Assembly: GCA_017963805.1 (NCBI GenBank)
Contig: JAGCTE010000015.1
Coordinates: 1-64,000 of the forward strand
Direction of reading: 5' to 3'
Source: a bacterium
Lineage (GTDB): Bacteria > Auribacterota > UBA3054
DNA: 64,000 nucleotides
Under the pieces are notes generated by a model. That model ran no database searches. It had not been told where the DNA came from and worked only from the letters and a program-made list of their open reading frames with translations. Numbering within the stretch: position 1 is the stretch's first letter; each line of letters begins with the position of its first letter. The translations under genes were made by a program, and so were the position numbers. Positions 2,221 to 19,322 of the stretch are shown here, piece by piece.

Positions 2221-5200
2221 TTACTTGCGTCTGAGGAAGAGGGCTCCCAGAGCGAGCAGGAAGAGAGCTGTTGCCGGTTCGGGCAGGGAGGGATCGCGGA
2301 TGATTAGCCTGGCTACGTGCAATCCGGTCTGGGCCCCGTCGGCGGCGACGGCCTGGGATAAGGAGCTGTCGTTGTCAAAGGTGTAGGCGGCGAAGGAGAA
2401 CTGGTCGATGGCCGTCCAGTCGTATTCGGGATCGAGCGGAATTTCGACTTCCTTTGTCTCATCGCCTAGCGAGGCTTCGGTTATCATTGCGACGTTAACG
2501 TCGGTGTTCATGGTGAAACTAAAGTCGACCCAGTCTTCGGAGAGGGGCTTCTGAACCATGGGCTGCAGCTCGTTTTCGTCGTTCACGTAGCAGATGTTGA
2601 TGGTCGAGGTGTTGTTGTCCTTGACCAGGTAAATGGGACGGTATCCCCAGCTGTCGATCGTGCCGATCCTTATGTAAGCGCTCTCTTCGGTGGTTTCCGT
2701 AAGGACGCGGCCCTGCAGGGTGAAGGAGGCCTGGTTCGGGACGGAGGCGGCAAGGAAAGCGGTGGATTTGTCCGTGAAGGTAAGGCAGGATTCGCCGTTG
2801 ATCTTTTCTATAACGATATCCTCGCTGCTGCTCCAGCCGGACTGCCCGTTCAGGGAGCCTTCACGGAAGTAGGGGGGCTGGAAGTCGGTGCCGTAGTACC
2901 AGCCGCCGACCGCGAACGAGACAAGCCCTGTCACGGCGCCGGTGATCTCACTATCGATGCCTTCGTAGGCGTAGCGGTAGCGGGCGTAGAAGAAGCCGTC
3001 TTGGAGGCCTTCCCTTGAGACGTTGAAGGTCAGTTTCTCGGTGGTGACGAGATCGCCGGCGGGCTTGGTGACGGTCACGAAGTCGGTGTAGTCGAGGACC
3101 GTGACGGTCGTCTTGGCGGAGCCGCCGCCGTTGTTGATGACCGTTGCCTCATAGGAGTCGCGGTAAGAGACCGGGACGCAGGAGGGCAAAACGGGATCGG
3201 GGTAGGCGGAGCGGTCGACAAGGGTGATCTCCATGTCGTCGATGCAGAAATCGGGTAAGCCCCAGCCGTAGATGTTGAAGTCGCCTAGCTTCATGCCGTC
3301 CTGGTTCTGGGCGGCCTGGTCGAAGTCGTTGGTCACGCCGTTGATCCAGATGGACTTCATGGCGACGACGCCGGTCCTGAGGTCGAGAAGGAAGCCGTAG
3401 TCGCACCATTCGCCCTGGGGGAAGCTGCCGCTGGTCAGCTGCATGAAGGAGCCGTTCATACGGTTGAGGTCAACGACGTAATGGCCGTCGCCGAATTTGT
3501 CGATGGCGTCGATCATGAAGCCGTTCTTGAAGCCGTGGCAGATCTGGGCGTCGAAGCTGTTGGCTTTGGCGCGGCAGTTGAAGCGGAGCAGGTATTTGTT
3601 GGCGTAGGGAGTGGTGTCGGGGACCGACATGTTGAGGGTGTATTCCGTCAGGCGGAGGTACTGGGAAGCGTCCGTTTCGATAAGGTTCGCTTCGTTGCCC
3701 GTCCAGGCGCCGTCCTGGGCGACTATCGGCAAGCCGACGGTGTACATTTCAAAGTCGTTGCCGTAGAGGACGTGCCCGCTGGCCACGCCGAAATTGATGT
3801 CCTCGCTTCCGGCTTCGCCGCCGTCAACATGGATGGTGCCGCGGTAGTATTCCTCGCCCATTTCCTCGCGGTTTAGGACGAGCTTGACTTCAGCGGTGCC
3901 CTGGCAGGAGCCTTCCGCGCCTTCCAAACTGGCCCAGGCGTAGTCGTCGCCCAAGGTCACGTTGTAGTTGAGCGTGCCGCCGCCGCGGTTAATGATGGTG
4001 ATGATGGCTTCGTTCTCCTCGAGACCGATGTTGCCGTTGAATTCAACGTCCAGTTCCGGCTTGGCTTCTTTCTCGACCAGCTCGATCTGGATGTCGTCGA
4101 TGTAGATGTCGGGGGCGCCCCAGCCGCCGAAGTAGACGGCGTTGCCGATGGAGCCCTGGCCGGATTCCTCACCCTTGGGGAGGTTGAAGTCGTCGGTCAC
4201 GCCGTTGATGGTCATGGATCTCAGGCGGTAGGAGCCCGGGGTGACGTCCATAACGAAGCTGTAGTCGGTCCATTTGCCGTTCGGGAAGTAGCCCGTGGTC
4301 AGTTTCATCTCGGTGACGTAGAAGCGGTGGCAGTCCACTACGTAGGCGTTGCCGAGCTTGTTGATGGCGTCGAACATGAAGTAGTTCCTGATGCCGTGCA
4401 TGACCTGGGATTCCTCTATGACTTTCATGCGGCAGGAGAACTTCACGTAGTAGTTTGTCGTATACGGCGTGGTGTCCGGGATGGAGTTGTAGGTGATGTT
4501 GTAGAGGGACTGTCCTTCCTCGGCGTAGAAGCGCATGCACTTGCTGCCTTCGTCGGTCATGACATAGTGCGGGCCGTTGCTCTGCCAGAGGGTGTCCTGG
4601 TCGGGGAGTCGCAATCCTTCCTCGTAGCATTCGAAGTCGCAGTTCATAAGGACAAGGCCGCTGGCCACGCCGACGTAGACCGTGACGGAGCCGGCTTCGC
4701 CGCCGTTAACGGTGACGGGGACGTGGTAGTACTGGCTGGCCATGGCGTCGCGGTCGACTTTGAATTTGACGGTGGCGGAGCCTTCGCAGGTGCCTTCCGC
4801 GTTTTCAAGGGAAGCGAAGCCGTAGCCCTCGGCGATGGTGGCCTTGTAGTTGAAGGAGCCGCCGCCCTTGTTGACGACGGTGATGGTGGTCTCGTCGGTG
4901 TCGAGGTCCAGGTTGCCGTTGACCACGGCCGAAGTGACGGGTTCGCCTTCCTTTAAGACTTTGGTCAGCTTGAAGTCGTCGAGATAGAAATCGGGGTTGC
5001 CCCAGCCGCCGAAGAAGAGCCGGCTGCCGATTGAGCCGCTGCCGCTGGTCTTAACGGCGATGTCGAAGTCGTTGGTGACGCCGTTCACCACCATGTTTTT
5101 AAGACGGTAAGAACTCGGGGTGATCTCCATAAGGAAGCTGTACTCGGCCCATTCGTCGTGCGGGAAGCGGCCGTCGGTGAAGAGCAGAGACCCGTAGGAA

Positions 5201-5610
5201 CGGTCGCAGTCGACGCCGTAGCCGTCGCCGTGCTTGTTGATCATGTCGAACATGAAGTAATCCTCAGGAGTGCGGAAGCCGTGCATGACCTGGGATTCTT
5301 TGAAAAGTTTCAGCTTGCAGGAGAAGCGGATGTAGTAGCGCCCGCAGTAGGGGGTGGTGTCGGGGACCTTGATGAAGCTCAGGCCCTTTAAGCTTTCGCC
5401 GTCGGGGGCGTAGAACCTGACGCATTTGTTGCCGTTGTCGTCGACGATGTAATGGGGACCCGTGGTGGCCCATTCGTTGCTGTGGGCGGACATAAGGTCG
5501 CCGGCGGCAAAAGTGCTGAAATCCTCGGACCAGATGACTTCCTCATCGGCCGTGACGCTCACGGCGGCAAGGGAAGCGGCTGCCGCAAGGAGAAGGAATA
5601 GACGTTTCAT
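2221..5610 (-). CDS. Large exported modular PEP-CTERM protein (1129 aa)
   Basis: Residues 1-21 are a signal peptide (MKRLFLLLAAAASLAAVSVTA). The C-terminus has the PEP-CTERM pattern: PEP motif, hydrophobic stretch, basic end (LPEPATALFLLALGALFLRRK). That pattern is known to be processed by an exosortase. Between them, four units of about 180-200 residues that resemble concanavalin-type beta-sandwiches (each starting near a DF-x-YxxG motif and ending with W-x-x-PD-x-x-(I/L)DD) alternate with BACON-like Ig units of about 90 residues (NxGGG..., SLExAEGxCxG..., then GGEAGS and GVASG). The first three large units are clearly related and the fourth is more distant. No catalytic motif was recognised; carbohydrate binding or an adhesive surface role is inference. 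GGAG-type ribosome site at 5617-5620. It is a relative of the proteins at 21240, 25007 and 31110 but lacks their C-terminal NANDW module. Confidence 0.85.
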   Translation of the reverse strand: MKRLFLLLAAAASLAAVSVTADEEVIWSEDFSTFAAGDLMSAHSNEWATTGPHYIVDDNGNKCVRFYAPDGESLKGLSFIKVPDTTPYCGRYYIRFSCKLKLFKESQVMHGFRTPEDYFMFDMINKHGDGYGVDCDRSYGSLLFTDGRFPHDEWAEYSFLMEITPSSYRLKNMVVNGVTNDFDIAVKTSGSGSIGSRLFFGGWGNPDFYLDDFKLTKVLKEGEPVTSAVVNGNLDLDTDETTITVVNKGGGSFNYKATIAEGYGFASLENAEGTCEGSATVKFKVDRDAMASQYYHVPVTVNGGEAGSVTVYVGVASGLVLMNCDFECYEEGLRLPDQDTLWQSNGPHYVMTDEGSKCMRFYAEEGQSLYNITYNSIPDTTPYTTNYYVKFSCRMKVIEESQVMHGIRNYFMFDAINKLGNAYVVDCHRFYVTEMKLTTGYFPNGKWTDYSFVMDVTPGSYRLRSMTINGVTDDFNLPKGEESGQGSIGNAVYFGGWGAPDIYIDDIQIELVEKEAKPELDVEFNGNIGLEENEAIITIINRGGGTLNYNVTLGDDYAWASLEGAEGSCQGTAEVKLVLNREEMGEEYYRGTIHVDGGEAGSEDINFGVASGHVLYGNDFEMYTVGLPIVAQDGAWTGNEANLIETDASQYLRLTEYTLNMSVPDTTPYANKYLLRFNCRAKANSFDAQICHGFKNGFMIDAIDKFGDGHYVVDLNRMNGSFMQLTSGSFPQGEWCDYGFLLDLRTGVVAMKSIWINGVTNDFDQAAQNQDGMKLGDFNIYGWGLPDFCIDDMEITLVDRSAYPDPVLPSCVPVSYRDSYEATVINNGGGSAKTTVTVLDYTDFVTVTKPAGDLVTTEKLTFNVSREGLQDGFFYARYRYAYEGIDSEITGAVTGLVSFAVGGWYYGTDFQPPYFREGSLNGQSGWSSSEDIVIEKINGESCLTFTDKSTAFLAASVPNQASFTLQGRVLTETTEESAYIRIGTIDSWGYRPIYLVKDNNTSTINICYVNDENELQPMVQKPLSEDWVDFSFTMNTDVNVAMITEASLGDETKEVEIPLDPEYDWTAIDQFSFAAYTFDNDSSLSQAVAADGAQTGLHVARLIIRDPSLPEPATALFLLALGALFLRRK

Positions 5611-5781: not shown

Positions 5782-6387
5782 ATGAAAAACCTCGCCATCT
5801 TCGTTTGCGCCGCCATTAGCTTAGCGGTCCTTTTGGCCTGCACCCCGGAAGTCAAGATCACCGGTGATGCGGAGAAACCCATCGCCATCAACGCCGAGAT
5901 CAACATCCACATCTATCAGCACGCCGAGGAAGTGGTGGACGATTTGTACGCCGGCCTCGACGACGAGCCGGAACCGGAGCCGGATTCCGCTTTCGTGAGA
6001 GTTATGGAACGCTTCGTGGCCGCCCTCTCCATATCAAGCTGCGAAGCCGCCGAGCAGAAGTCCCAGGCTTACCAGGAAATGAAGAAGCTTTTCGCCGACA
6101 CCATGGTCAAATACATGCGCACCGGTTACGTGGGCGAGAACAAGGACGGATACGTCACTTATATCGGCAAGCCCGATAAATGCGATCCTAAGGTCGCCGC
6201 CGCCGCCCAGGAAGCCGTCAAGAAGCTGAACGCCGCCAGGAAGGCCTTCTACGAAGAGGAAGCCAAGAGCCAGAACACGACCGTGGCCGAGATCCAGAAG
6301 ACTTACGCCGCTGTCTACGCCGCCAAGGCCAAAGGCATCTGGGTGGAAGTCAGCAACGGCAAAACTTACGAATGGAAAAAATTCTAA
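5782..6387 (+). CDS. YnbE-YdbL-like fusion lipoprotein
   Basis: A 201-residue lipoprotein. The start ATG at 5782 is preceded by AAGGAAACATT; the longer open frame to 5611 runs through the promoter and is not used. The signal ends in lipobox LLAC with Cys20. Residues 20-45 (CTPEVKI, EKPIAINAEINIHI) resemble YnbE, the small lipoprotein that partners the AsmA-like protein YdbH in E. coli. After an acidic, proline-rich linker (DDEPEPEPD), residues about 110-200 resemble YdbL (DUF1318): VGENKDGYV, LNAARKAFYEEEAKSQNTTV, AAKAKGIWVEVSNGK. In E. coli these are separate genes in ydbH-ynbE-ydbL, linked to phospholipid transport between membranes. Here they are one chain, without a ydbH neighbour. It is 9 bases ahead of ackA and is the first gene of the operon. 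I rely on remembered family sequences, so the identification is likely but not proven. Confidence 0.7.
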   Translation: MKNLAIFVCAAISLAVLLACTPEVKITGDAEKPIAINAEINIHIYQHAEEVVDDLYAGLDDEPEPEPDSAFVRVMERFVAALSISSCEAAEQKSQAYQEMKKLFADTMVKYMRTGYVGENKDGYVTYIGKPDKCDPKVAAAAQEAVKKLNAARKAFYEEEAKSQNTTVAEIQKTYAAVYAAKAKGIWVEVSNGKTYEWKKF

Positions 6388-6396
6388 GGAGCGAAA

Positions 6397-7584
6397 ATGT
6401 TTATTCTTGTCATCAACTGCGGCAGTTCCAGTCTTAAATTCCAGCTTATCTCCCTTCCCGAACGCACCGTGGCCGCCAAAGGCCTTGTGGAGCGTATCGG
6501 ATTAGGCGGCGACGCCATGTTCAAGATGTCGTATGGCGAAACGAAGCTTCCCAGTTCGCCGATCAAAGCCTCTAACCACACGGAGGCTGTCAGCTACGTT
6601 ATCGAGGCCCTGAAGAAAGACGTCCTTAAAGAGGGGCAGAAGATCGACGCCTTCGGCCACAGAGTGGTGCACGGCGGCGAAAAATTCTTCTCCTCCGCGG
6701 TCATCGACGACGATGTTCTGAAGTGCATCGAGGAATGCGGCAAACTCGCTCCCTTGCACAACCCCGCCAACATGGCCGGCATCGTGGCTTGCCAGAAAGC
6801 CGCCCCGGGCGTGCCCAACGTCGCGGTCTTCGACACGGCTTTCCATCAGACCATGCCGCCCAAGGCCTTCCAGTACGCCCTGCCTTACAAGTTCTACAAG
6901 GAAAACGGCATCAGGCGCTACGGCTTCCACGGCACGAGCCACAAGTTCGTGACCAGAGCCTACGCTGAGATGAGCGGCAAACCGCTGGACGAGGTGAACA
7001 TCGTCGTCTGCCACCTTGGCAACGGCTCCTCCATCACCTGCGTCAAAGGCGGCAAGTGCGTCGACACCTCCATGGGCCTTACGCCCCTGGCCGGCGTCGT
7101 TATGGGCACCAGAAGCGGCGACATCGACCCCGCCATCGTCCTCTACATGATCGAGAACCTCGGCATCGCCCCGGCGGAAGTCAACAAGATATTGAACAAG
7201 CAAAGCGGATTCTTGGGCGTTTCCGAAGTCAGTAGCGACATGCGCGACGTGGAAGGCGCCGCCGAAGGAGGCAACGCGCAGGCCAAGCTCGTTCTGGAGA
7301 TGACGGCTTACTCCATCGCCAAGTACGTGGGCTCCTACGTTTCGCTGCTTCCCAAGACCGACGCCATCGTCTTCACGGCCGGCATCGGCGAGAATTCCGC
7401 GGAGATGAGGGAATGGGTCTGCGGCAACCTCGCCGGGCTCGGGCTCGAACTGGGTGAGAAGAACAGGGAAAGAGGCTTTGCGGGATGCGTGTCCGCGCCT
7501 TCTTCCAAGATCCCCGTCTGGGTCATCCCGACCAACGAAGAGCTCATGATCGCTTTGGAAACCTACGAACTCGTCAGTAAATAA
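6397..7584 (+). CDS. ackA: Acetate kinase
   Basis: Acetate kinase converts acetyl phosphate and ADP to acetate and ATP, the last energy-yielding step of mixed-acid fermentation. The 395-residue length is typical. Family signatures are present: N-terminal LVINCGSSSLKFQL, GHRVVHGGE, the active-site region FDTAFHQTMP, RRYGFHGTSH, CHLGNGSS, DTSMGLTPL, GVVMGTRSGDIDP, TAGIGENS and the C-terminal TNEELMIA. A ribosome site (GGAGCGAAA) fills the 9-base gap after the lipoprotein gene. The partner phosphotransacetylase is not in the window; ackA instead sits among envelope genes. The stop TAATG overlaps the start of sppA by one base, so they are probably co-translated. Confidence 0.98.
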   Translation: MFILVINCGSSSLKFQLISLPERTVAAKGLVERIGLGGDAMFKMSYGETKLPSSPIKASNHTEAVSYVIEALKKDVLKEGQKIDAFGHRVVHGGEKFFSSAVIDDDVLKCIEECGKLAPLHNPANMAGIVACQKAAPGVPNVAVFDTAFHQTMPPKAFQYALPYKFYKENGIRRYGFHGTSHKFVTRAYAEMSGKPLDEVNIVVCHLGNGSSITCVKGGKCVDTSMGLTPLAGVVMGTRSGDIDPAIVLYMIENLGIAPAEVNKILNKQSGFLGVSEVSSDMRDVEGAAEGGNAQAKLVLEMTAYSIAKYVGSYVSLLPKTDAIVFTAGIGENSAEMREWVCGNLAGLGLELGEKNRERGFAGCVSAPSSKIPVWVIPTNEELMIALETYELVSK

Positions 7585-8633
7585 TGGATCAGTACAACAT
7601 TCCCGACGCTCCTTCGAGCCCCAGCCCTCGCGGCCGCTTCAGCAGCGGCTGCGGCTGCTCGGGGCTGCTGGGAGCCTTCATAATCTGCGTTGGACTTGTT
7701 GTCCTCGCGCTCTCGTTCCTGGCCCTCTCGTCCACCATAGACAGGTTCTTGGGCCGCTTTGAGGTAACCTGCGGGGAAGAGGAGATCGTAAGTTCCGACA
7801 CTTCCAAGAACAAGGTCGTCAAGATCGAAGTCAAAGGCGCCATTTCTTTCAGCGAGAACAAAAGCTCCTTCTGGGGCAAGAACGAAGGCATGGCCGAAGT
7901 CATCATAGACGACATCAGGCACGCCAGGGAAGACAAGGACGTCAAGGGCTTGCTTTTGGTGGTGGACAGCCCGGGCGGCGAAATTACCGCCTGCGACTTC
8001 ATCGACCAGGAAGTGAAAAAGTTCCGTTCCTCTTCCACCAACCGCTGCGTCGTCTCCTATATGCGGGGCGTGGCCGCCTCCGGCGGCTACTACGTCTCCG
8101 CGCACGCCGACAAGATCGTCATCACCCCAACGACGATAACCGGCTCCATCGGCGTCATGATGCAGGGCATAAATTTCCAGGAAGCCGCGGAAAAGCTCGG
8201 CGTGAAGAGCGTGAGCTTCACCTCCGGGCCCATGAAAGACATGCTCAATCCCATGAAGGGCGTCTCGGAATCCGTCTCCAACGTCGTGCAGGCGACCATA
8301 AACGAACTGTACGACCAGTTTGTCAACGTTATCGCCGAGGGGCGCCGCATGCCCGTGGAAAAGGTTAGGGAGCTTGCCGACGGCAGGATCTACACCGCCA
8401 AGCAGTCGCTGGAAAACGGCCTGACCGACAAAATAGGCTACATGGACGAAGTGAAGGAGACCTTCAGGGAGCTCGGCCTTGCCGAATACGAACTCGTCGA
8501 GTACGAGGAAGACGAGGGAGTGGTCGACATGCTGAAGAAAGCCTTTTCAACTTTCGGCGGATTGAAGCCTGAAATAAAGCTGCCGGAAACCTCCTGGCGC
8601 TTAAGGTACGCTTCGCCCTTTATGGAAGAATGA
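7584..8633 (+). CDS. sppA: Signal peptide peptidase SppA, short membrane-bound form
   Basis: SppA is a membrane serine protease of the Clp/crotonase fold that degrades cleaved signal peptides using a Ser-Lys pair. This 349-residue protein has a Gly/Cys/Ser-rich N-terminal tail, one membrane helix at about residues 28-50, and a single protease domain, like Bacillus SppA and unlike the double-domain E. coli enzyme. The nucleophile is Ser166 in GVAASGGYYVSA, and the likely general base is Lys218 in SGPMKDMLNPMKG. Supporting blocks are LLLVVDSPGGE and TGSIGVMMQGIN. The C-terminal 50 residues are acidic, then variable. It overlaps ackA by one base and the next gene by four (ATGA). Its position in an operon with exported and lipid-modifying proteins fits an envelope role. 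Confidence 0.93.
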   Translation: MDQYNIPDAPSSPSPRGRFSSGCGCSGLLGAFIICVGLVVLALSFLALSSTIDRFLGRFEVTCGEEEIVSSDTSKNKVVKIEVKGAISFSENKSSFWGKNEGMAEVIIDDIRHAREDKDVKGLLLVVDSPGGEITACDFIDQEVKKFRSSSTNRCVVSYMRGVAASGGYYVSAHADKIVITPTTITGSIGVMMQGINFQEAAEKLGVKSVSFTSGPMKDMLNPMKGVSESVSNVVQATINELYDQFVNVIAEGRRMPVEKVRELADGRIYTAKQSLENGLTDKIGYMDEVKETFRELGLAEYELVEYEEDEGVVDMLKKAFSTFGGLKPEIKLPETSWRLRYASPFMEE

Positions 8634-9904
8634 GCATGAGAATATTTTTGTTTGTTTTGATATGCGCCTCCGCGCTGTTAGCCGCCCAGAACGGGAGCGC
8701 CAACATGTTCGGGGAAAAGGAGCCGGTGGCGAAAGCTTTCTACGAGATCAGCGAAAGACTGTCTTCGCTCGAGTGCCTTGACCTTACATACACGTCGATG
8801 GTCCACTCCATGCAGGGCGACGTAAACCAATCCGGCAGCATCATCCAGGAACCGCCGTACCGCTTCAGAAGCGAAGTGTGGACGCACGCCATGGACGGCA
8901 TAACCCGCTCGCACGAACTGACGGTCTCGAACGGCACCAACGGCTGGGAGGTTTCCATCTCCCCGAACGGAAAGACCGTCGCGGTCTCTTTCTGGACGCT
9001 GGCATCTATGGGCGACATCTTTTTGTCCTTCATGGACCGCGCGACGCCGTTCCTGATCACCCCGGCGAAGACCAATTCCTACGAGGGGCTGCGCTACAAC
9101 TACATCTTCACGAAGGTCAATAAAGGATCCGACGGCTGGGAGTTCGAGGGAAATATCAGGCACGACTCCGACATGCTGAAAGGCATAGCGAAACAGGCTT
9201 CAGCCATGGGCCCCCAGGGCTTTTCCAATTTTGTCCCCGACAGAGTCTGCATGAAGGTAAGCAACGACGGCATAATAAAAGAGTTCAAGCGCTACAACCT
9301 TTACGGGAACCTCCTTTCAATGATGACGTTGAAGCGCGCGCTCGTCAACACCTACGTCGACAACAAGCTCTTTTATTACACGCCGCCTCAGGGAGTGTTT
9401 TTGTCCAACCTTGACATCCTTCAGGAGCTGCCTTCGATGTACGTCAGGCACGCGCTGCTTGGCAAACCCGCCCCCGACATCAAGGTCAATTATCTTTCCG
9501 GGAAGGACAAGATCATAAAGCCCGGCGCCAAGGGCGTCATAGTCCTCACCTTCTTCGCGAGCTGGAGCCAGCTCTGCCGCGAATACATGGTCGTAATCGA
9601 CAAGCTTCATTCAAAGTACGCCGGGACGGGCGTGCAGTTCGTCAACGTCTCCGACCAGCAGGACATGAAGACGCTACTGGCTTTCCAAAGGGGGCTTGAC
9701 ACGATCATCTATTCCGACCCCGACCGCTCGCTGGTCAAGACGTACGACATCGACAACATCCCCAAGACCTTCTTCATAGACAAAGCGGGCGTAGTCCGCT
9801 ACGTTATGGAAGGCTTCAACACCGCTTCCGAAGTCGAAATAGGAAAACGCATCGACGAATTGAAGGAAGAGAAAGTGGAGAAGGAAACGGAAGCTAAGAA
9901 GTGA
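8630..9904 (+). CDS. Exported LolA-like plus TlpA/redoxin-fold protein lacking one redox cysteine
   Basis: An N-terminal hydrophobic signal (RIFLFVLICASALLAAQ) predicts export. Residues about 30-270 look like the LolA/DUF2092 beta-fold (LECLDLTYTSMV, YRFRSEVWTHA, LYGNLLSMMTL), and residues about 285-415 are a thioredoxin-fold redoxin (LGKPAPDIKVNYLSG, VLTFFASWSQLCREYM, NIPKTFFIDKAGVVRY with the cis-Pro). In TlpA-type reductases the WCxxC motif carries the attacking cysteine; here the first Cys is Ser313 (WSQLC) and only Cys316 is left, so ordinary disulfide exchange is unlikely. It may be a structural or one-Cys peroxidase-like form. The end is a charged KEEKVEKETEAKK tail. ATGA overlap with sppA; a second in-frame ATG lies at 8636. 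Tight coupling to the next gene suggests a shared envelope function. Confidence 0.75.
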   Translation: MSMRIFLFVLICASALLAAQNGSANMFGEKEPVAKAFYEISERLSSLECLDLTYTSMVHSMQGDVNQSGSIIQEPPYRFRSEVWTHAMDGITRSHELTVSNGTNGWEVSISPNGKTVAVSFWTLASMGDIFLSFMDRATPFLITPAKTNSYEGLRYNYIFTKVNKGSDGWEFEGNIRHDSDMLKGIAKQASAMGPQGFSNFVPDRVCMKVSNDGIIKEFKRYNLYGNLLSMMTLKRALVNTYVDNKLFYYTPPQGVFLSNLDILQELPSMYVRHALLGKPAPDIKVNYLSGKDKIIKPGAKGVIVLTFFASWSQLCREYMVVIDKLHSKYAGTGVQFVNVSDQQDMKTLLAFQRGLDTIIYSDPDRSLVKTYDIDNIPKTFFIDKAGVVRYVMEGFNTASEVEIGKRIDELKEEKVEKETEAKK

Positions 9905-11694
9905 TGGCTGAGAAAAAAATCAACATAAAACTGGCCGCGCTTCTGGCGATTTTGGGCCTTCTTATCGCGATGATAGCGGCGCCCTGGGTCTTCAGGGTGA
10001 CCAGCCAGCTGGACCTGACGAAGGCTTTCATTTTCCGCAAGGTCTTCAACCGGGTCTTCCTTGTTTCCGAAGTTCTCGTTTTCCTTGCCTTCTGGAAGAA
10101 GCTGGGAATAGAGCTGCCGTACAAGGTCTATTACAAGCGCCAGCATATAAAGAACGAGTTCGGGAGCTGGTTTGTCGTCGCCATCATAACGATCGCGCTG
10201 ATGACCGTCATCCAGTATTTCGCGGGCTTCAGGCATTATCAGCCGAGGTCGTGGGACTATATTCTATCCAAGGGCGCCGTCGCGCTGCTTTCCTCCTTTA
10301 TCGTGGCCATAATGGAGGAGACGATCTTCCGCGGGCTTTTGTTCTCGTCTTTCAAGACGCGCTTCAGGAGCATGTACTCCGCCATCTTCACATCCCTGAT
10401 CTTCGCGTCGCTTCACATCTTCAGCCTCGATCATTTCTTGAAGAGCATCAAAGCCGCCCAGGTGAATTTCGCCGGCACCGACCCCCTGGCGGGTTTCTAC
10501 CACATGGCGCTCTTCATGAAGCCCATCTGCGACTGGCAGGTGATCGTTCCCGGCTTCATAGGGCTTTTCATCTGCTCTCTCATGCTCTGCGGGCTCACCA
10601 TGAAGACAGGGTCCCTGTGGCCGGCCATCGCCACGCACTGCGGCTGGGTCTTCACCATCAAGGTGACTGGACGCATTTGGCCCTACGATAAGGAGGCCGC
10701 CGCGGCAACGGGCCTGCAGTGGCTCCTTGGCGAGAAATTCGTGGCCACCGGCGCCCTCGGCTGGATCATCGTCCTTATTGAGACGGCTTACGTCGTCGGG
10801 CTGGTCGGATACTCGGTCTACCTTTCCCTTAAATATGTCTGCTCGAAAATAAGCATCGACTCCTGCTACAGGATGGCGGACTTTTTCGGAAACGTCAGCT
10901 ATTATCTCGGACTTAAAAAATGCGCCATAGCGATAGACAACATAAGGCGCGCCTTCCCGGGAGTGAGCGGCAAAGAGGTGAGACGCATCGCCAAGGCCAG
11001 CTTCAGGAACCTCGCGCGCACGGCCGTCGGCGTCCTTATCATGCCGCGATTGCTTAAGAGAGTGCCCAGCGGGTTCGAGTGCATGCACGTCGACCGCATC
11101 GCCAAGGCGCACGCCATGGGAAGCGGCGGAATAGTTTATTTCACGGCTCACTACGGCAACTGGGAAACGCAGAGCTGGACCAGCACGCTTTTGGGCGGAG
11201 ATTTCACCGCGGTGGGCAGGCCTTTCAGGAACAAGCTTGTCTACAGGGACATCGCCAGGAAAAGGGAGGCGGTGGGCTTGAAGCTCGTCAACAAGAAAGA
11301 AGCCATCCGCCCCCTGATCAAAACCCTGAGGAGGGGAGGCGAAGTGGGCCTTGTGGCCGACCAGTACGCCGGCAAAGGCGGCGTGCCGACTCTTTTCATG
11401 GGAAGAGTGTGCTCGACTACGGGCGCCGCAGCGGCTTTGGCCAGGATGACGCACTGCCCGATCGTTCCGGCCTTCTGCCGGGAACTGCCCAATCACCATT
11501 TCCAGGCTTACATTTACGAACCCTTCTTCGTAGCGGAAACGGACGACGCCGAAAAAGACATCAGGGAAGCGACGCAGAGAGCGATGTCCTGCCTTGAGCG
11601 GGAAGTAAGAAGAGCGCCGGAATACTACCTCTGGGCCCACCGCAAGTGGCGCAGAAGCTACACTAAGCTCCATCCTGAGATCAAGGAGAAATGA
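9904..11694 (+). CDS. Fusion of CPBP-family membrane protease and LpxL/HtrB-like lipid acyltransferase
   Basis: One 596-residue chain holds two enzymes. Residues 1-310 are a multi-pass CPBP (Abi) intramembrane metalloprotease. All three motifs are present: EETIFR at 138-143, FASLH ending at His171, and His245 in ATHCGW. Residues about 320-596 are a lysophospholipid acyltransferase of the LpxL/HtrB group, which adds secondary acyl chains to lipid A: IDNIRRAFP, HYGNWE with the HX4E pair His416/Glu421, VGRPFRN, GLVADQ, and YYLWAHRKWR near the end. The frame is unbroken, so this is a real fusion and not an annotation slip. ATG 9904 overlaps the previous stop by one base and is preferred over GTG 9901; the end overlaps waaF by ATGA. 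With waaF next door, LPS or lipid assembly is the likely pathway. The protease substrate is unknown. Confidence 0.85.
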   Translation: MAEKKINIKLAALLAILGLLIAMIAAPWVFRVTSQLDLTKAFIFRKVFNRVFLVSEVLVFLAFWKKLGIELPYKVYYKRQHIKNEFGSWFVVAIITIALMTVIQYFAGFRHYQPRSWDYILSKGAVALLSSFIVAIMEETIFRGLLFSSFKTRFRSMYSAIFTSLIFASLHIFSLDHFLKSIKAAQVNFAGTDPLAGFYHMALFMKPICDWQVIVPGFIGLFICSLMLCGLTMKTGSLWPAIATHCGWVFTIKVTGRIWPYDKEAAAATGLQWLLGEKFVATGALGWIIVLIETAYVVGLVGYSVYLSLKYVCSKISIDSCYRMADFFGNVSYYLGLKKCAIAIDNIRRAFPGVSGKEVRRIAKASFRNLARTAVGVLIMPRLLKRVPSGFECMHVDRIAKAHAMGSGGIVYFTAHYGNWETQSWTSTLLGGDFTAVGRPFRNKLVYRDIARKREAVGLKLVNKKEAIRPLIKTLRRGGEVGLVADQYAGKGGVPTLFMGRVCSTTGAAAALARMTHCPIVPAFCRELPNHHFQAYIYEPFFVAETDDAEKDIREATQRAMSCLEREVRRAPEYYLWAHRKWRRSYTKLHPEIKEK

Positions 11695-12734
11695 TGGCGG
11701 ATTTCTCTCCCTATAAGCTCCTCGTTAGGTCTCCGAACTGGCTGGGCGACTGCGTGCTCGCGATGCCGGCCATGAGGGAGCTTAGAAGGTTCCGCCCCAA
11801 CGCCCATATTTCCGTTTTGGCCAAGAAGTCGGTCGCCGATCTCTGGAGAATGTGCCCGTACGTCGACGAAGTCATTCCCTTTGAGATAAGGAAAGGGATC
11901 ATGGGCTTGGACGACCGCTGGGACCTGGGGAAAGAGCTTAAGAAAATGAACTTCGACCTTGCTCTCATCCTGCCGAATTCCTTCGACGCTGCCTTGGTTC
12001 CGTTCCTCGCCAGGATAAGGCGCCGCATGGGCTGGGCGACTTATCACAGGGGAATGCTTTTGAACCGCAAGGTCCCTTTCCCGCATCACCTGGACGGCGA
12101 GCAGCAGCCGCACTGCCAGCTCTACCTTGTCGAGAAGCTGGTGCGCCATCCCGTTGACCACACCCTGGACGCCGAGATAAGGATCCCGGAAGACGCGAGG
12201 GAATACGCCGCGAAATTAAGGGGCGATTATTTCGTCGTCTGCCCGGGCGCCAATTACGGCACGGCCAAATGCTGGCTTCCCGAAAGCTACGTCGAAGCCA
12301 TAAAGAAACTTCACAAAGAGACCGGCCTCAACTGTTATTTGGTCGGCGGCAAAGGGGATTCTCCCGTCTGCTCGGAGATAGCCAAGGAAGTGCAGGGCGA
12401 GGAAGGGGAGGCCTCCTTCTGCCGGGACCTCTCAGGTAAGACCAATCTCTTCGAGCTGGCGGCTGTGCTCGAAAAAGCGAAGGTCCTTCTGACCAACGAC
12501 ACCGGAACGATGCACCTCGGCGCCGTCGTGAAAACTCCCGTCGTCGCCATCTTCGGCCCCACCAACTGGCTTAGGACCGCGCCGCTCGGGGAAAACAACA
12601 TTTTGCTGAGGGGTGAGCACGACTGCCGGAAGCGCTGCCGCCGCGTTTGCGAAAGCGACCACCGCTGCATGAAGGCCGTTACCGTCGACATGGTCATGAA
12701 CGCCGCCAAAGAAAAATTGCAAGCAACAAAATAA
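11691..12734 (+). CDS. waaF: ADP-heptose:LPS heptosyltransferase II
   Basis: This GT9 enzyme transfers heptose from ADP-heptose to the LPS inner core at the cytoplasmic face. The 347-residue length and blocks fit WaaF: N-terminal LLVRSPNWLGDCVLAMPAM, then LILPNSFDAALVPFLA, RRRMGWATY, the nucleotide-site region VCPGANYGTAKCWLPESY, and LLTNDTGTMHLGA followed by PVVAIFGPTNWLRTAP. A Cys-rich tail (DCRKRCRRVCESDHRC) resembles the four-Cys tail often seen in WaaF homologues. It starts inside the last codons of the fusion gene (ATGA), and the next gene begins 13 bases after its stop. WaaF or another GT9 heptosyltransferase are the only realistic options. Confidence 0.9.
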   Translation: MMADFSPYKLLVRSPNWLGDCVLAMPAMRELRRFRPNAHISVLAKKSVADLWRMCPYVDEVIPFEIRKGIMGLDDRWDLGKELKKMNFDLALILPNSFDAALVPFLARIRRRMGWATYHRGMLLNRKVPFPHHLDGEQQPHCQLYLVEKLVRHPVDHTLDAEIRIPEDAREYAAKLRGDYFVVCPGANYGTAKCWLPESYVEAIKKLHKETGLNCYLVGGKGDSPVCSEIAKEVQGEEGEASFCRDLSGKTNLFELAAVLEKAKVLLTNDTGTMHLGAVVKTPVVAIFGPTNWLRTAPLGENNILLRGEHDCRKRCRRVCESDHRCMKAVTVDMVMNAAKEKLQATK

Positions 12735-12747
12735 ACCTTAAGGACTC

Positions 12748-15700
12748 ATGAAAAAACATCCGCTCGTTTTAGCGCTCCTGCTTGTTTCCGTTCCGGCTCT
12801 GGCCGTCCCCGTTTTCCCCATGGCGTCGCCCGAAATAGACGAGGCCAAGCCTTTCTGCTACTACAGCCGCCCGACAGACCAGCTGGGCGTCTGGGACGCG
12901 CCGTACGCCTTCATGGTGACCGCGGAGGGATATCTCTACAACAGGTCTTCGGAACTGATGTTCATGTACGGCCCGGATTTTGAGCCGACGCACAACCGCA
13001 ACAGAGTGTTCGAGGACGACAAGTATCCCATCATGAGCTATGATCTGACGAAGCTCGGCGTGAAATACACTTTCAAGATGTTCGCTTTCACGAAAGAGCG
13101 CGGCGTTCCCAGAAGCCCGCTCTACTGCTTCGTCAAGGTGACGATGGAGAACGTGAGCGGCAGCGACAACACGGCCTATTTCGGCGTCGGCACGCGTTAC
13201 AAAGGCGTGACCAGACGCATAGACATTAACTCCGCTTATCCTTTCAGCAGAGGCTCCCTCTACGAGTTCAGGGGCAACGTCGCGCTTCGCGACGACGAGG
13301 TGATAGCGCTCTACCAGGATGTTCCCGAAAGACACGTCACCGCCACCATCGACACTATCTACAAAGGCGCTTTCCGCGGCTACGAGGAGGCGGTCCTGGA
13401 GACCACCCCTTGGTGTCCCGCCCGCTATGAGATCAGCCTTGCTCCCAAAGAGAGCAAGAGCGTGGTCATACTCTATCCCAATATGCCGACTTCCCCTGAC
13501 GAGATCAGCGAACTGGAAGCCTACCTCGATCCCGCGGTCTTCGACAAAAAGCTCGCGGATGCCAAGGAAGACTGGGACAAGCTGCTGAATAAGGCCGTTG
13601 AACTGAGGCTACCGGAGAAGAAAGTGGAGAACGCTTTCTACACCAGCCTCATGAACATGGCCATTTCAAGGGACGACCAGGGCGACGGCACCTATTACCA
13701 GGGCGTCAACGAAATGCAGTACTACATGTTCGTGCCCCGCGACATGATGTACTTCACCTGGGCCTGGTACTACGCCGGCATGCCGGACGAGGGAAGAAAA
13801 GTCGTGGACCAGTACAAGCGTTATCTGCAGGAGAACGGCAGCTTCTACATCGACCAGGAGAACATCTGCTCTTACGCCATCCTTATGTGGTACCAGAAGA
13901 CCAAGGATATGGAATATCTCAAGGAGATGTGGCCTGTTCTGATGAAGAACTATACCTACACGACCAACATCATCGCCAATGATCCCTTGAAGCTCATGCC
14001 GAAGATGGGCCCCTACGACAACGAGGGCATCACCGGCCACTACACCGCCCACAATTTTTACAACGCCAAAGCCTTCAGGTACCTTTCTTCCGCCGCGAAA
14101 GACCTCGGCTTGGAAGAGGACGCGAAAAATTACCTCGCTTACTACGAGAACTTCTACTCCAACCTCGTCGGCCGACTCAACGGCTTGGTCGACAAATACG
14201 GCTACATCACGCCCGGCATCGACACCGGGACGAACGGCGCACACTGGGGCAACATGGAGACGAGTTATCCGACCTTCATTTTCGGATCGAAAGACGAGCG
14301 CGTCAGAAAGACCATCGACCACATAAGGAAGAACGACTGGAGCGACGAAGGGCTCATCATGTTCCGCGCCCTTGGCTGGGACTGCCTGCACCACTACAAC
14401 ACCATGAAGGCTTCTATGGCGGACCTTTACATGGGCCGCGATGAGAACGTCGTCAAAGACCTTTACGGAGTTCTCCTGCACACTTCCTCGACACACGCGC
14501 TCTTTGAGTTCTGCCTGAATCCCTGGCAGAACCGCGACTTCCTGCACAACGTCACGCCCCACGGCTGGGGCGCCGTGAAGTATCTTTCTTTAGTGAGAAG
14601 CATGATGGTCAGGGAAGACGAAGTGAGCAACCTCTACCTCTTGTCCGCCACGGCGCCCACCTGGACGCTGCCCGGGAAAGAGATCACGGCTAAGCGCTTC
14701 AATTCGCTCTTCGGCAACGTTGACCTCTTCGTCAAGGGAACAGAGGAAGGCATGAAGATAAGTGTCGCCATCTCTCAGGACGGCGGCGTTTGGGGCAAGC
14801 CCAATAAAGTTTTTGTGAAAGTGCCTTACTACGCCCTGAACGCGAAAGCGACGGTGGATGGCAGACCCGCCGAGATCGCCGACGGACAGGTGGAAGTGCC
14901 CCTCGACGTCAAGGAAGTGGAGTTGACCTTCGACCGTCCCGAAGGGCCGTACCAGGATTACGAGAGCACCGTCGACTGGTACATAAAGGAATACGCCAGG
15001 CGCTTCGCCGAATGGAAGAAAGAGCACCTGACGGAAGCGAATTGGGAATGCTTCCCGGAAAAGGAATTGGAGAAGCTGCCGAAACGCCAGCAGAAGAACA
15101 TTTCCATGAAAGAAAAGGAAGGGGTAATGACCTTCCAGCCCGTCACCGCCTCCTCTTCCGCCAACGGAACCGAAGTCAAGACCGTAAACGACGGCATCAC
15201 CGACGCCAACCAGGCAAGGGCCTGGCGTCCGGCGTCCGACGAGGAAACTTCAACGATCGAGTGCGAGCTGAAAGCGGCGGCTCTGGCCGGCTGCGTGAGA
15301 ATTTACGGCCGCGGCCTTGACAAGCCCGCCGTGAAGGTTTTCGTCGTGAACGAGGACGACGAGGAAGTTTTGATCGGATCCACCGAAAAGACCGCCATCC
15401 CCGTGAGGAGCGACCTCTACGTCTGCCTCTTCCCGGACACCATGGTGAAGAAGGTCAAGGTCGTTTTTGAAGGCGGCGGCTTCACCGTCTCGGAATGCCA
15501 GCTGCTTCCCGCTTCCGACGTCTTTAAGCGCGGCGGCCTGAGAGGGGACAAGAAGGGCGGGAATTTGGCCTACGGGCGCCCGGTATTCACCTCGCCGCAC
15601 GAAAAAGGCTACGTCGGCACCTTCCTGGTGGACGGCGAGACAACGAGCGAACCCAACTATTGGAGCGGCGCTCCGCCTCATCCCCAGTGGGCTATAATCG

Positions 15701-15963
15701 ATCTCGGTAAGGCTGAGGAGATCTCCAAGATCAAGACCTACCTCTACTCCCACGACCATCGCCACTACGGCTACTCCTGCTGGATCTCGAAAGATCTCAC
15801 AGATTGGAAGGAAGTCGGGAGAATGGACGACCTCTGCAGCAACTACTGCAAGGAAGGCGGCGATACCAATTTCGCCAAGGAACCGGCCCGCTACGTCATG
15901 CTCGTCATCGAGAAGAACACGGTCAACGAAGGCGGCCACGCCGCCGAGATCGAAGTGTACTGA
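12748..15963 (+). CDS. Exported six-hairpin glycosidase-like protein with discoidin domain, copy 1
   Basis: The signal peptide is MKKHPLVLALLLVSVPALA. An N-terminal beta-sandwich-like part (to about residue 270: FCYYSRPTDQLGVWDAP, MVTAEGYLYN) is followed by an (alpha/alpha)6-barrel-like region at about 285-640. Conserved acidic or aromatic blocks there include YQGVNEMQYYMFVPRD, MGPYDNEGITGHYTAHNFYN, GAHWGNMETSYPTF, LHHYNTMKASMADLY and VTPHGWGAVKYLSLVR. The last 150 residues are an F5/8 type C (discoidin) sugar-binding domain (NLAYGRPVFTS, FLVDGE, PPHPQWAIIDLGKAEEI). The closest known group seems to be six-hairpin glycosidases (rhamnosidase-like), but I cannot assign a GH family or substrate. 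SD AAGGA precedes ATG 12748. It follows waaF by 13 bases and ends in a strong terminator. A close paralogue lies directly downstream. Confidence 0.7.
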   Translation: MKKHPLVLALLLVSVPALAVPVFPMASPEIDEAKPFCYYSRPTDQLGVWDAPYAFMVTAEGYLYNRSSELMFMYGPDFEPTHNRNRVFEDDKYPIMSYDLTKLGVKYTFKMFAFTKERGVPRSPLYCFVKVTMENVSGSDNTAYFGVGTRYKGVTRRIDINSAYPFSRGSLYEFRGNVALRDDEVIALYQDVPERHVTATIDTIYKGAFRGYEEAVLETTPWCPARYEISLAPKESKSVVILYPNMPTSPDEISELEAYLDPAVFDKKLADAKEDWDKLLNKAVELRLPEKKVENAFYTSLMNMAISRDDQGDGTYYQGVNEMQYYMFVPRDMMYFTWAWYYAGMPDEGRKVVDQYKRYLQENGSFYIDQENICSYAILMWYQKTKDMEYLKEMWPVLMKNYTYTTNIIANDPLKLMPKMGPYDNEGITGHYTAHNFYNAKAFRYLSSAAKDLGLEEDAKNYLAYYENFYSNLVGRLNGLVDKYGYITPGIDTGTNGAHWGNMETSYPTFIFGSKDERVRKTIDHIRKNDWSDEGLIMFRALGWDCLHHYNTMKASMADLYMGRDENVVKDLYGVLLHTSSTHALFEFCLNPWQNRDFLHNVTPHGWGAVKYLSLVRSMMVREDEVSNLYLLSATAPTWTLPGKEITAKRFNSLFGNVDLFVKGTEEGMKISVAISQDGGVWGKPNKVFVKVPYYALNAKATVDGRPAEIADGQVEVPLDVKEVELTFDRPEGPYQDYESTVDWYIKEYARRFAEWKKEHLTEANWECFPEKELEKLPKRQQKNISMKEKEGVMTFQPVTASSSANGTEVKTVNDGITDANQARAWRPASDEETSTIECELKAAALAGCVRIYGRGLDKPAVKVFVVNEDDEEVLIGSTEKTAIPVRSDLYVCLFPDTMVKKVKVVFEGGGFTVSECQLLPASDVFKRGGLRGDKKGGNLAYGRPVFTSPHEKGYVGTFLVDGETTSEPNYWSGAPPHPQWAIIDLGKAEEISKIKTYLYSHDHRHYGYSCWISKDLTDWKEVGRMDDLCSNYCKEGGDTNFAKEPARYVMLVIEKNTVNEGGHAAEIEVY

Positions 15964-16103: not shown

Positions 16104-19100
16104 ATGAGATCAGCATCAGTACTAGCCGCCTTGTCATTGCTTGCGGCCTCCTTCGCGACGGCCCAGCAGCACCCCATGGTCTCCCCTGAGATCGATACCG
16201 AAAAACCCTTCTGCTATTACAGCAGGCCCACGGATCAACTCGGCGCCATGGACTCCCCCAAGGGATTCATGGTCACGGCGGAAGGGTACCTTTACAACAG
16301 GGCGGCGGAAATGATGTTCATGTACGGCCCAAAGCTCGATCTTGTCCAGAACCGCAACCGCTATCTGGAAGACAACATCTACCCGATCATAAACTACTCA
16401 ATGGAGAAGATGGGGATAAAGTACTCCTTCAAGATGTTCGCCTTCAACCTTGAGCGCGGAGTCCCGAGAAGCCCCCTGTACGCCTTCACGAAAGTGACGA
16501 TGGAGAACGTCTCCACGAGCGACGGCGTCGCGTATATCGCAACCGGCTTGCGCCACAAAGGCGTGACGCCGCGCATAGAAGCCAGCAGGAACTACGCTTT
16601 CCAACGCGAGTCGACTTACGAACTGAGGGGCGACGCCGTTCTGCGCAACGACGAGATCCTGGCCGTTTATCCTCAGGACCCCTCCAGGAAGATCTCCGCC
16701 ACGATAGACCATCCCTACGAGGGAACGTTCAAAGGCTCCCAGTACGCCGTGACCGAGACCACCCCCGTCTGCATCGCCGACTATTCCGTAGACCTCAAGC
16801 CGGGCGAGAGCAAGAGCCTCGTCTTCCTCATGCCCAACGCTCCCACGAACTGGGCGGCGGTCGGCACCATGCTGAACCTTATGAAGGATCCCTTCGCTTT
16901 CGATCGGAAACTAAGGGAAGTCAAGGAAGACTGGGACGAACTGCTTCTCAGGGCCGTCGACCTCAAGATCCCCGAGGAAAAAGTCCAGGCCACCTTCTGG
17001 ACCAGCCTTATCAACATGGCCATAGCCCGTGACGACGAGGGCAACGGCTACTATTCCCAGGGCGTCAACGAAATGCAGTACACCGGCTTCTTCCCCAGGG
17101 ACTCCATGTATTTCAGCTGGTCCTGGCTCTTCGCGGGCTTCCCCGAGGAAGGCAAAAAGGTCGCCACCTATTACGAGAAGACGCAGCACGACGACGGCCG
17201 CTTCTTCAACGACCAGGAGAACATCGGCCCCTACGCCATTCTCATGTGGTACTACAAGACGAAGGACAGGGATTACCTCGACAGGATGTGGCCGCGCCTC
17301 GTCAAGAACTTCAACTACGTCACGAACGTCATCGCCAACGATCCCCTTAAGCTGATGCCGGCCATGGGCCCCTACGACAACGAGGGCATCACCGGGCATT
17401 ACACCGCGCACAATTTCTACAACGCCAAAGCCTTTGAGATGATGGCAAGCTGCGCCAAGGAATTAGGGCAGGATGAGGAATCGAAAAAGTACCGCGCCTA
17501 CGCCGACAGCTTCATCTCCAACATGATGTACCATGTCAACGTCGCCTTCGCGACCAACGGCTTCATTCCTCCCGGCATCGACACCGGAAAGAGCGGCGCG
17601 CACTGGGGCAACATGGAGGCGAGCTACCCGACGTTCGTCATGGGAAGCCATGACGAGCGCGTCAAGAAAACTATCGACTACATCAGGGAAGTCGACTGGA
17701 GCGACGAAGGGCTCATCATGTTCAACGCGCTTGGCTGCAACTGCCTTCATCACTACAACACGATGAAAGCCTCCATGGCCGACCTTTACCTCGGCCGCGA
17801 CGAGAACGTGATCAAGGATCTCTACGGCGTCCTTTTGCACACCTCCTCGACTCACGCCTTCTTTGAATTCTGCCTTGACCCCTGGAGCAACCGCGACTTC
17901 GGCGGGAACTTCACGCCTCACGGCTGGGGACACGTGAAGTACGTTTCGCTTATCCGCAACATGCTGGTCAGGGAAGACGAAGTCAGCAACCTTTACCTGT
18001 TGTCCGCCGTGGCGCCCGCCTGGACGCTGCCGGGAAAAGAGATCGTGGCCAGGCGCTTCAACACGCAGTTCGGCAACGTCGACCTTGTCGCCAAGGGAAC
18101 CCCCGAAGGACTGAAGGTCGACCTCAAGATCGACCAGGAGGGCGGCGTCTGGGGCAAGCCGAGGAAAGTTTTCATCAAGGTCCCGTACTTCGCCCTGAGG
18201 GCCAGCGTTTCCGTTGACGGGAAGCCCGCCGCCATAGGGTCTGACAACTATGTCGAGATCCCGCTTTCCGCCCGCGAGGTAGTGATGGATTTCAAGCGTT
18301 CTCCCAAGCCGGTCGAGACCTACAACACGACCGTCAGGAGCTTCATAAGGGAATACGCCAAACACTTCGACAGCTGGAGAAAGGAAAACGCCTTCACGCC
18401 GCTATGGGAATGCTTCCCGGAAAAGAGCCTGCAGACTTTCGACGAGCGCCAATTGAGAGACCAGCAGCTGAAGAGCCAGGAAGGCTTGATGACTTTCCTG
18501 CCGATACTCGCTTCCTCTACGGACGAGAAATGCGACTACAGGGCCATCAACGACGGCATAGCCAACGACAACACGCCGAAGTTCTGGCGCCCCGCGGCGG
18601 ACGATTCTGAACCCTGGTTCGAATGCAACCTCGACGAGCCGACGCAGGCCTACTGCGTGAAGCTCTTCGGCAACAACATCGCCGAAGCGAAGGCCAAGAT
18701 CTTCGTTACAAAAGCGGACGGCGAGGAAATTTTGGTGGGCGATTCCGCCGCGCCCGAACTTCCCATCCACGGAAAGCTTTTCGTCTGCACTTTCAAGCAG
18801 ACGCAGATAAAGAAAGTCAGGGTGGCTTTCGAGGGCAAAGTCAACCGCATCTACGAGTGCACGCTGCTAGGTGAGAGGGACTGCTGGCACCAGGGCATCC
18901 CGAGGATGCCCGGCAAAGTCGGCAACCTCGCTTACAACTGCCCGGTCTTCACCTCGCCTTCGGAGACCCCGACGGAATTTCAGCTGGTGGACGGCGACAC
19001 GGACTGCGCCACCTCTATGTGGAGCGGCGGAGCGCCTCATCCGCAGTGGGCGATAATAGACCTCGGCGAGGAGACGGAATTCTCCAGACTGCACGCCTAT

Positions 19101-19322
19101 TTCTTCCATGACGGACGGCGCTGCTACAGCTACCGCTACCTCGTCTCGCCGGATCTGCACTCCTGGAAAGAAGTAGGCGGCAAGGACGACTGCCTGGCCG
19201 TAAAGGACGGCGACGAGATAACAATTGAGCCGGTCAAAGCCCGCTACGTCATGATAAGGATCGACAAGAATACCGACAACCCGGCCGGCCACGTGGCGGA
19301 AGTCGAGATCTTCGCCAAATAG
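16104..19322 (+). CDS. Exported six-hairpin glycosidase-like protein with discoidin domain, copy 2
   Basis: 1072 residues, almost the same length and architecture as copy 1: signal peptide (to about residue 20, ASFATAQ), beta-rich N-domain, helical barrel and C-terminal discoidin domain (NLAYNCPVFTSPSE, PHPQWAIIDLGEE). Blocks shared with copy 1 include MGPYDNEGITGHYTAHNFYN, GAHWGNMEASYPTF, NTMKASMADLY, HTSSTHAFFEFCL and MLVREDEVSNLYLLS. This is close tandem duplication followed by divergence, seen most in the linker and discoidin parts. The conserved Asp/Glu/His in these blocks suggest both copies are active enzymes or both keep a sugar-binding cleft. It is separated from copy 1 by a terminator and its own promoter. 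The substrate is unknown; glycans with similar but not identical linkages would explain keeping both. Confidence 0.7.
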   Translation: MRSASVLAALSLLAASFATAQQHPMVSPEIDTEKPFCYYSRPTDQLGAMDSPKGFMVTAEGYLYNRAAEMMFMYGPKLDLVQNRNRYLEDNIYPIINYSMEKMGIKYSFKMFAFNLERGVPRSPLYAFTKVTMENVSTSDGVAYIATGLRHKGVTPRIEASRNYAFQRESTYELRGDAVLRNDEILAVYPQDPSRKISATIDHPYEGTFKGSQYAVTETTPVCIADYSVDLKPGESKSLVFLMPNAPTNWAAVGTMLNLMKDPFAFDRKLREVKEDWDELLLRAVDLKIPEEKVQATFWTSLINMAIARDDEGNGYYSQGVNEMQYTGFFPRDSMYFSWSWLFAGFPEEGKKVATYYEKTQHDDGRFFNDQENIGPYAILMWYYKTKDRDYLDRMWPRLVKNFNYVTNVIANDPLKLMPAMGPYDNEGITGHYTAHNFYNAKAFEMMASCAKELGQDEESKKYRAYADSFISNMMYHVNVAFATNGFIPPGIDTGKSGAHWGNMEASYPTFVMGSHDERVKKTIDYIREVDWSDEGLIMFNALGCNCLHHYNTMKASMADLYLGRDENVIKDLYGVLLHTSSTHAFFEFCLDPWSNRDFGGNFTPHGWGHVKYVSLIRNMLVREDEVSNLYLLSAVAPAWTLPGKEIVARRFNTQFGNVDLVAKGTPEGLKVDLKIDQEGGVWGKPRKVFIKVPYFALRASVSVDGKPAAIGSDNYVEIPLSAREVVMDFKRSPKPVETYNTTVRSFIREYAKHFDSWRKENAFTPLWECFPEKSLQTFDERQLRDQQLKSQEGLMTFLPILASSTDEKCDYRAINDGIANDNTPKFWRPAADDSEPWFECNLDEPTQAYCVKLFGNNIAEAKAKIFVTKADGEEILVGDSAAPELPIHGKLFVCTFKQTQIKKVRVAFEGKVNRIYECTLLGERDCWHQGIPRMPGKVGNLAYNCPVFTSPSETPTEFQLVDGDTDCATSMWSGGAPHPQWAIIDLGEETEFSRLHAYFFHDGRRCYSYRYLVSPDLHSWKEVGGKDDCLAVKDGDEITIEPVKARYVMIRIDKNTDNPAGHVAEVEIFAK

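Follow-up and report, generated by a model that had tools for sequence, protein, structure and literature searches.

A single gene on the forward strand of the window, the 64,000-nucleotide stretch of DNA from a bacterium of the Auribacterota (UBA3054) analyzed here, joins a CPBP/Rce1-like membrane domain to an LpxL-type acyltransferase in one intact frame of 596 amino acids (positions 9904 to 11694), and this cpbp-lpxL fusion is real. Its product may be an acyltransferase that acts late in lipid-A assembly and carries its own membrane partner, the CPBP half being dedicated to positioning the enzyme and its lipid substrate, a reading to which we give about an even chance. The ATG at 9904 overlaps the stop codon of the upstream gene (TGATG), and the stop codon of the fused gene overlaps the start of waaF at 11691. 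Both domains were recognized well above the Pfam cutoffs in the same protein, with 56.4 bits for the Rce1-like family PF02517 (cutoff of 22.4) and 129.7 to 131.7 bits for Lip_A_acyltrans, PF03279 (cutoff of 22.3). The two-domain protein in an unbroken frame between overlapping genes, as proposed in the initial annotation from the letters of the DNA, is thereby confirmed.

The same annotation had named recurrence of the fusion in related PVC genomes as support. Of 15 genomes analyzed from the order, 12 carry the fused gene, a count that includes two (G007 and G012) in which it is cut by contig ends. These genomes belong to four families, and the identity of the fused proteins ranges from 84 to 92% within the genus to 34 to 40% in the other families of the order. 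The three genomes without the fusion (G001, G013, and G014) have completeness values of 83, 74, and 64%, respectively. Near relatives are metagenome-assembled genomes (MAGs) from rumen, intestine, Lac Pavin, and other projects. A search for 16S rRNA genes in G000 and 10 members of the class found none. A split of the two halves in close relatives had been named as the result that would speak against the fusion, but the close relatives are fused, and no stop codon lies between the halves in any fused member of the order. When a profile of the fused protein was searched against 384 genomes (ca. 340 of them from outside the phylum), 243 gave a match of some kind, in most cases over the LpxL portion, and among the matches listed, full-length ones came only from this order. 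Two irregular cases were seen among the fused genes. One genome (G004:C147, L035, positions 5843 to 6889) encodes a fused protein with an in-frame insertion or duplication of ca. 40 amino acids in the CPBP part, which could be an assembly effect, and another (G002) has two differing copies on two contigs (L036 on C133 and L038 on C126), perhaps due to a mixture of strains.

Eight residues (E138, E139, R143, F167, H171, H245, H416, and E421) are invariant in nine fused proteins from the four families. We also calculated dN/dS by the Nei-Gojobori method, with our own script, for pairs within the genus, and obtained 0.10 to 0.17 for the CPBP half, 0.09 to 0.14 for the linker, and 0.10 to 0.15 for the LpxL half. 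These values show purifying selection on both halves and on the linker, all three parts being kept as protein. Chance, a missed stop codon, and a frame or assembly artifact could be excluded by the low dN/dS and by the recurrence of the fusion across several MAG projects (12 genomes in all).

The C-terminal half (positions 10834 to 11655) belongs to Lip_A_acyltrans rather than to a different acyltransferase family, the other result named at the outset as speaking against the proposal. Foldseek assigned it the PatA/LpxM fold (5kn7 and 5f2t) with a probability of 1.00, and the HX4E catalytic motif (positions 11149 to 11166) is preserved, with H416 and E421 present in 9/9 fused proteins. It therefore shares sequence family, fold, and motif with LpxL, LpxM, and PatA, but differs from them in having no stand-alone start, in the 303-residue polytopic domain that precedes it, and in scoring under every NCBIfam subtype cutoff (LpxL, LpxM, and LpxP; best value of 156.9 versus 248 bits). 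LpxL enzymes act at the inner leaflet of the membrane, on its cytoplasmic face, with acyl carrier protein as the donor. By analogy, this half is best read as catalyzing a late acylation of lipid A on that leaflet.

The N-terminal half (residues 1 to 303, positions 9904 to 10812) contains eight predicted transmembrane (TM) helices and most of the residues expected of a CPBP glutamic protease. The motif EETIFR (E138, E139, and R143; positions 10315 to 10332), the histidine of the FxxxH motif (FASLH, His171; positions 10414 to 10416), and a second histidine, H245, are invariant across 16 fused and split members of the subfamily that have 20 to 41% identity to the window protein. The catalytic motifs listed in the initial annotation for the two halves (EETIFR, His171, His245, and His416/Glu421) are all present and invariant, but the asparagine (or aspartate) that should complete the motif HxxxN/D has been lost. 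By the family definition, the CPBP active site is therefore incomplete, and the statement in that annotation that this half keeps its motifs needs correction. The altered fourth motif reads H245-x-G-W-V249, with K253, near-invariant, eight residues past H245 (positions 10636 to 10662). Position 249 is valine in 15/16 members (HxGxV) and isoleucine in the other one, and asparagine in none, whereas nearly all the canonical CPBPs of the phylum have HxxxN. The spacing has changed as well. The second histidine lies 98 to 107 residues past the glutamate pair in the subfamily, against a spacing of 66 in almost all of the phylum's canonical CPBPs; fused and split members alike have 32 to 41 additional residues ahead of the fourth motif (residues 174 to 210 here, positions 10423 to 10533, between the two histidine motifs). 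The subfamily thus retains most of a catalytic pocket, though not the standard one. Sorting-type CPBPs of the Synerg-CTERM and myxosortase kinds were considered and rejected, as the scores against the NCBIfam models NF040589 and NF040914 fell under the cutoffs (MrtS, 34.3 versus 130 bits; Mrt_core, 20.6 versus 100 bits).

AlphaFold2 modeled the whole protein with a pLDDT of 77.7 and a pTM of 0.66, and the CPBP half with values of 79.0 and 0.73. The models have eight membrane helices, with TM8 leading across the junction (positions 10753 to 10842) straight into the helix at the N terminus of the LpxL domain, and the positively charged loops fit an N-in/C-in topology that would leave the LpxL domain in the cytoplasm. 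Searched alone with Foldseek, the CPBP half matched best SpdC (6u0o, probability of 1.00), followed by MmRce1 (4cad, probability of 0.98 to 0.99), with no others standing out, although with E values of 0.045 to 0.22. For the Rce1 fold, comparison with 4cad gave a TMt of ca. 0.55 and an E value of 0.16 to 0.22. The likeness to the CPBP/Rce1 proteases thus extends to fold, EExxxR, the FxxxH histidine, and the second histidine; the differences are the valine in place of the asparagine, the insert, and the fusion to, or position beside, LpxL.

Outside the order, but within the phylum, CPBP and LpxL are encoded by separate genes that are often neighbors in a lipid-A operon, indicating that the fusion is the derived state. 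In six genomes from three families (G018, G025, and G032 of f8; G020 and G028 of f10; G040 of f17), cpbp closely precedes lpxL in the same orientation, with a domain-to-domain gap of 38 to 215 bp, versus 4 to 10 bp inside the fusion. In two others, cpbp is either 1.35 kb from lpxL (G035) or near a contig end (G038). The general order in the split operons is (kdtA)-lpxK-(lpxA)-cpbp-lpxL-(waaF), with lpxK upstream of cpbp; in f10, where lpxA comes between them, it reads recombinase-kdtA-lpxK-lpxA-cpbp-lpxL-waaF. In one member of the order (G011), the fused gene is immediately preceded by lpxK. In the genus of the window, the fused gene has been parted from lpxK (G000:C22) and waaF was retained, and the G000 genome encodes LpxK. 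The completeness of the lipid-A pathway was judged here from LpxK, waaF, and the operon neighbors. In the trees, the fused CPBPs formed one clade (support of 100/100), as did the fused LpxLs (98/98). All CPBP-linked LpxLs, fused and split, grouped in one clade with moderate support (82/84), which also takes in two f10 LpxL orthologues not shown to be adjacent to cpbp. The second LpxL of the window's genome falls in a distant clade. The simplest reading of these trees and gene orders is a single fusion event from an ancestral pair of adjacent genes.

The association is not universal. Families f6, f11, and f14 carry lpxL but lack this CPBP, so the CPBP partner is lineage specific. Conversely, families f7, f9, and f12, as well as family f160 of another phylum, have members of the CPBP subfamily that are not adjacent to lpxL, those of f160 having no LpxL within 13 to 16 kb, and the CPBP may therefore have a wider role. 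The genes of f7, f9, and f160 are located at L122 (6789 to 7730), L126 (10042 to 10944), L229 (4118 to 5065), L227 (7523 to 8419), and L228 (4557 to 5450), and those of f7 and f9 neighbor ComF- and adenosylhomocysteinase-like genes.

Operon adjacency together with the fusion gives good support to a link between this CPBP and lipid A, and the protein very probably acts in the lipid-A acylation pathway. In the reading that we prefer, an ancestor had the operon lpxK-cpbp-lpxL, and in this order CPBP and LpxL were joined in one chain where TM8 meets the N-terminal LpxL helix. The LpxL domain, at the cytoplasmic face, would transfer an acyl group from its carrier to the Kdo-lipid-A precursor, as expected from established LpxL biology, while the CPBP module would mainly anchor LpxL at the membrane and present or gate the lipid substrate, its conserved Glu/His pocket binding a ligand. 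A noncanonical role of this kind is favored by the loss of the HxxxN asparagine and by SpdC being the closest fold. SpdC is a CPBP homologue that acts as a scaffold, positioning and orienting the envelope enzyme SagB (PMC10581084), although it is a separate protein from a Gram-positive organism and its partner is a glucosaminidase. Another parallel is LnsB, a CPBP-like membrane protein required alongside LnsA for the N-acylation of lipoproteins (PMC7387801); there, however, the acyl-transfer enzyme is an NlpC/P60 protein and the target is a lipoprotein. Several points weigh against the preferred reading: the invariance of the Glu, Arg, and His residues would exceed the needs of a pure scaffold; LnsB, unlike this CPBP, has lost the CPBP catalytic residues; and the orthologues away from lpxL suggest that the CPBP may do more than serve LpxL.

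The initial annotation had suggested a protease as well as an anchor that positions acylation, and the latter alternative fits better. An active intramembrane protease working on a membrane protein that takes part in assembling lipid A or lipoproteins, with the fusion coupling proteolysis to acylation, seems unlikely, though it is the strongest of the competitors. The three invariant motif elements (EExxxR and both histidines) and the Rce1 fold would suit it, as would the location of sppA, the second gene upstream within the genus, and the myxosortase MrtX offers a precedent for a bacterial CPBP that cleaves envelope proteins (PMC11980579). However, the HxxxN asparagine, part of the catalytic/oxyanion set and assigned to the oxyanion hole in MrtX and MmRce1 (PMC11980579), is missing throughout the subfamily, which makes protease activity doubtful; the insert alters this same region, the sortase-type models scored below cutoff, and no candidate substrate was seen in the operons. 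Loss of the asparagine is no proof of inactivity, since replacement of its equivalent in DidK (N278, printed as H278) lowered activity by over half but not to zero (PMC10811503).

More improbable still, in our estimate, is a lipid hydrolase activity of the CPBP half, which would cut an acyl ester or amide bond of a lipid-A precursor or of an acyl donor. The fusion would then be a two-site acyl-editing enzyme, in which one site takes off a fatty acid and the other puts one on. We know of no CPBP protein that acts on lipid A, and the models leave it uncertain where the insert sits with respect to the lipid. On the other hand, the invariant Glu/His site with its altered fourth motif, the near-invariant K253, and the lipid-A enzyme genes all around would be in keeping with such an activity, and the CPBP homologue DidK works as an esterase on a nonprotein, acylated substrate, although it belongs to secondary metabolism and retains N278 (PMC10811503). 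If true, acyl editing would represent a new CPBP chemistry and a new step of lipid-A assembly, divided in relatives as an lpxK-cpbp-lpxL operon. As for a CPBP fold that merely replaces the short N-terminal helix of LpxL as a membrane anchor with no role of its own, the continuity of TM8 with that helix would agree with it, but active-site residues would then not remain invariant, and the split CPBP is retained beside lpxL even where LpxL already begins with a hydrophobic stretch, making this highly improbable.

A literature search combining CPBP with LpxL or lpxK found no description of such a link, and within the literature searched this fusion of two known families was previously undescribed; a Riemerella CPBP paper reports LPS/O-antigen phenotypes for a different CPBP. 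Adjacency in some families and fusion across the order act as a natural "Rosetta stone" that ties a CPBP to lipid-A acylation, and they point to an unrecognized membrane partner in outer-membrane lipid assembly. To our knowledge, roles have been assigned to few CPBP proteins of bacteria. Here both the partner and the pathway are definite and the altered motif is distinctive, which makes the choice between protease, scaffold, and lipid hydrolase directly testable.

Regarding the neighborhood, waaF (heptosyltransferase II, positions 11691 to 12734, forward strand) directly follows the fused gene, as first annotated, with a 4-base overlap and 210 bits against TIGR02195 (cutoff of 134.6). Upstream, on the same strand, the gene overlapping the fusion start (8630 to 9904) has a thioredoxin-like (AhpC/TSA) C-terminal part by Pfam and no domain assigned to its N-terminal part, and throughout the genus it holds a fixed place between the fused gene and sppA, the S49 signal peptide peptidase (7584 to 8633, forward strand; TIGR00706 above cutoff). 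PADLOC gave no match to an anti-phage system. Beyond waaF, there are two tandem related proteins of ca. 1072 amino acids (12748 to 15963 and 16104 to 19322), both of which end in an F5/8 type C (carbohydrate-binding-like) domain and have no Pfam match outside it. Three very large open reading frames on the reverse strand (2221 to 5610, 21240 to 24875, and 25007 to 28606; 1130 to 1212 amino acids) form one BLAST cluster, and the first of them has a weak match to BACON_2.
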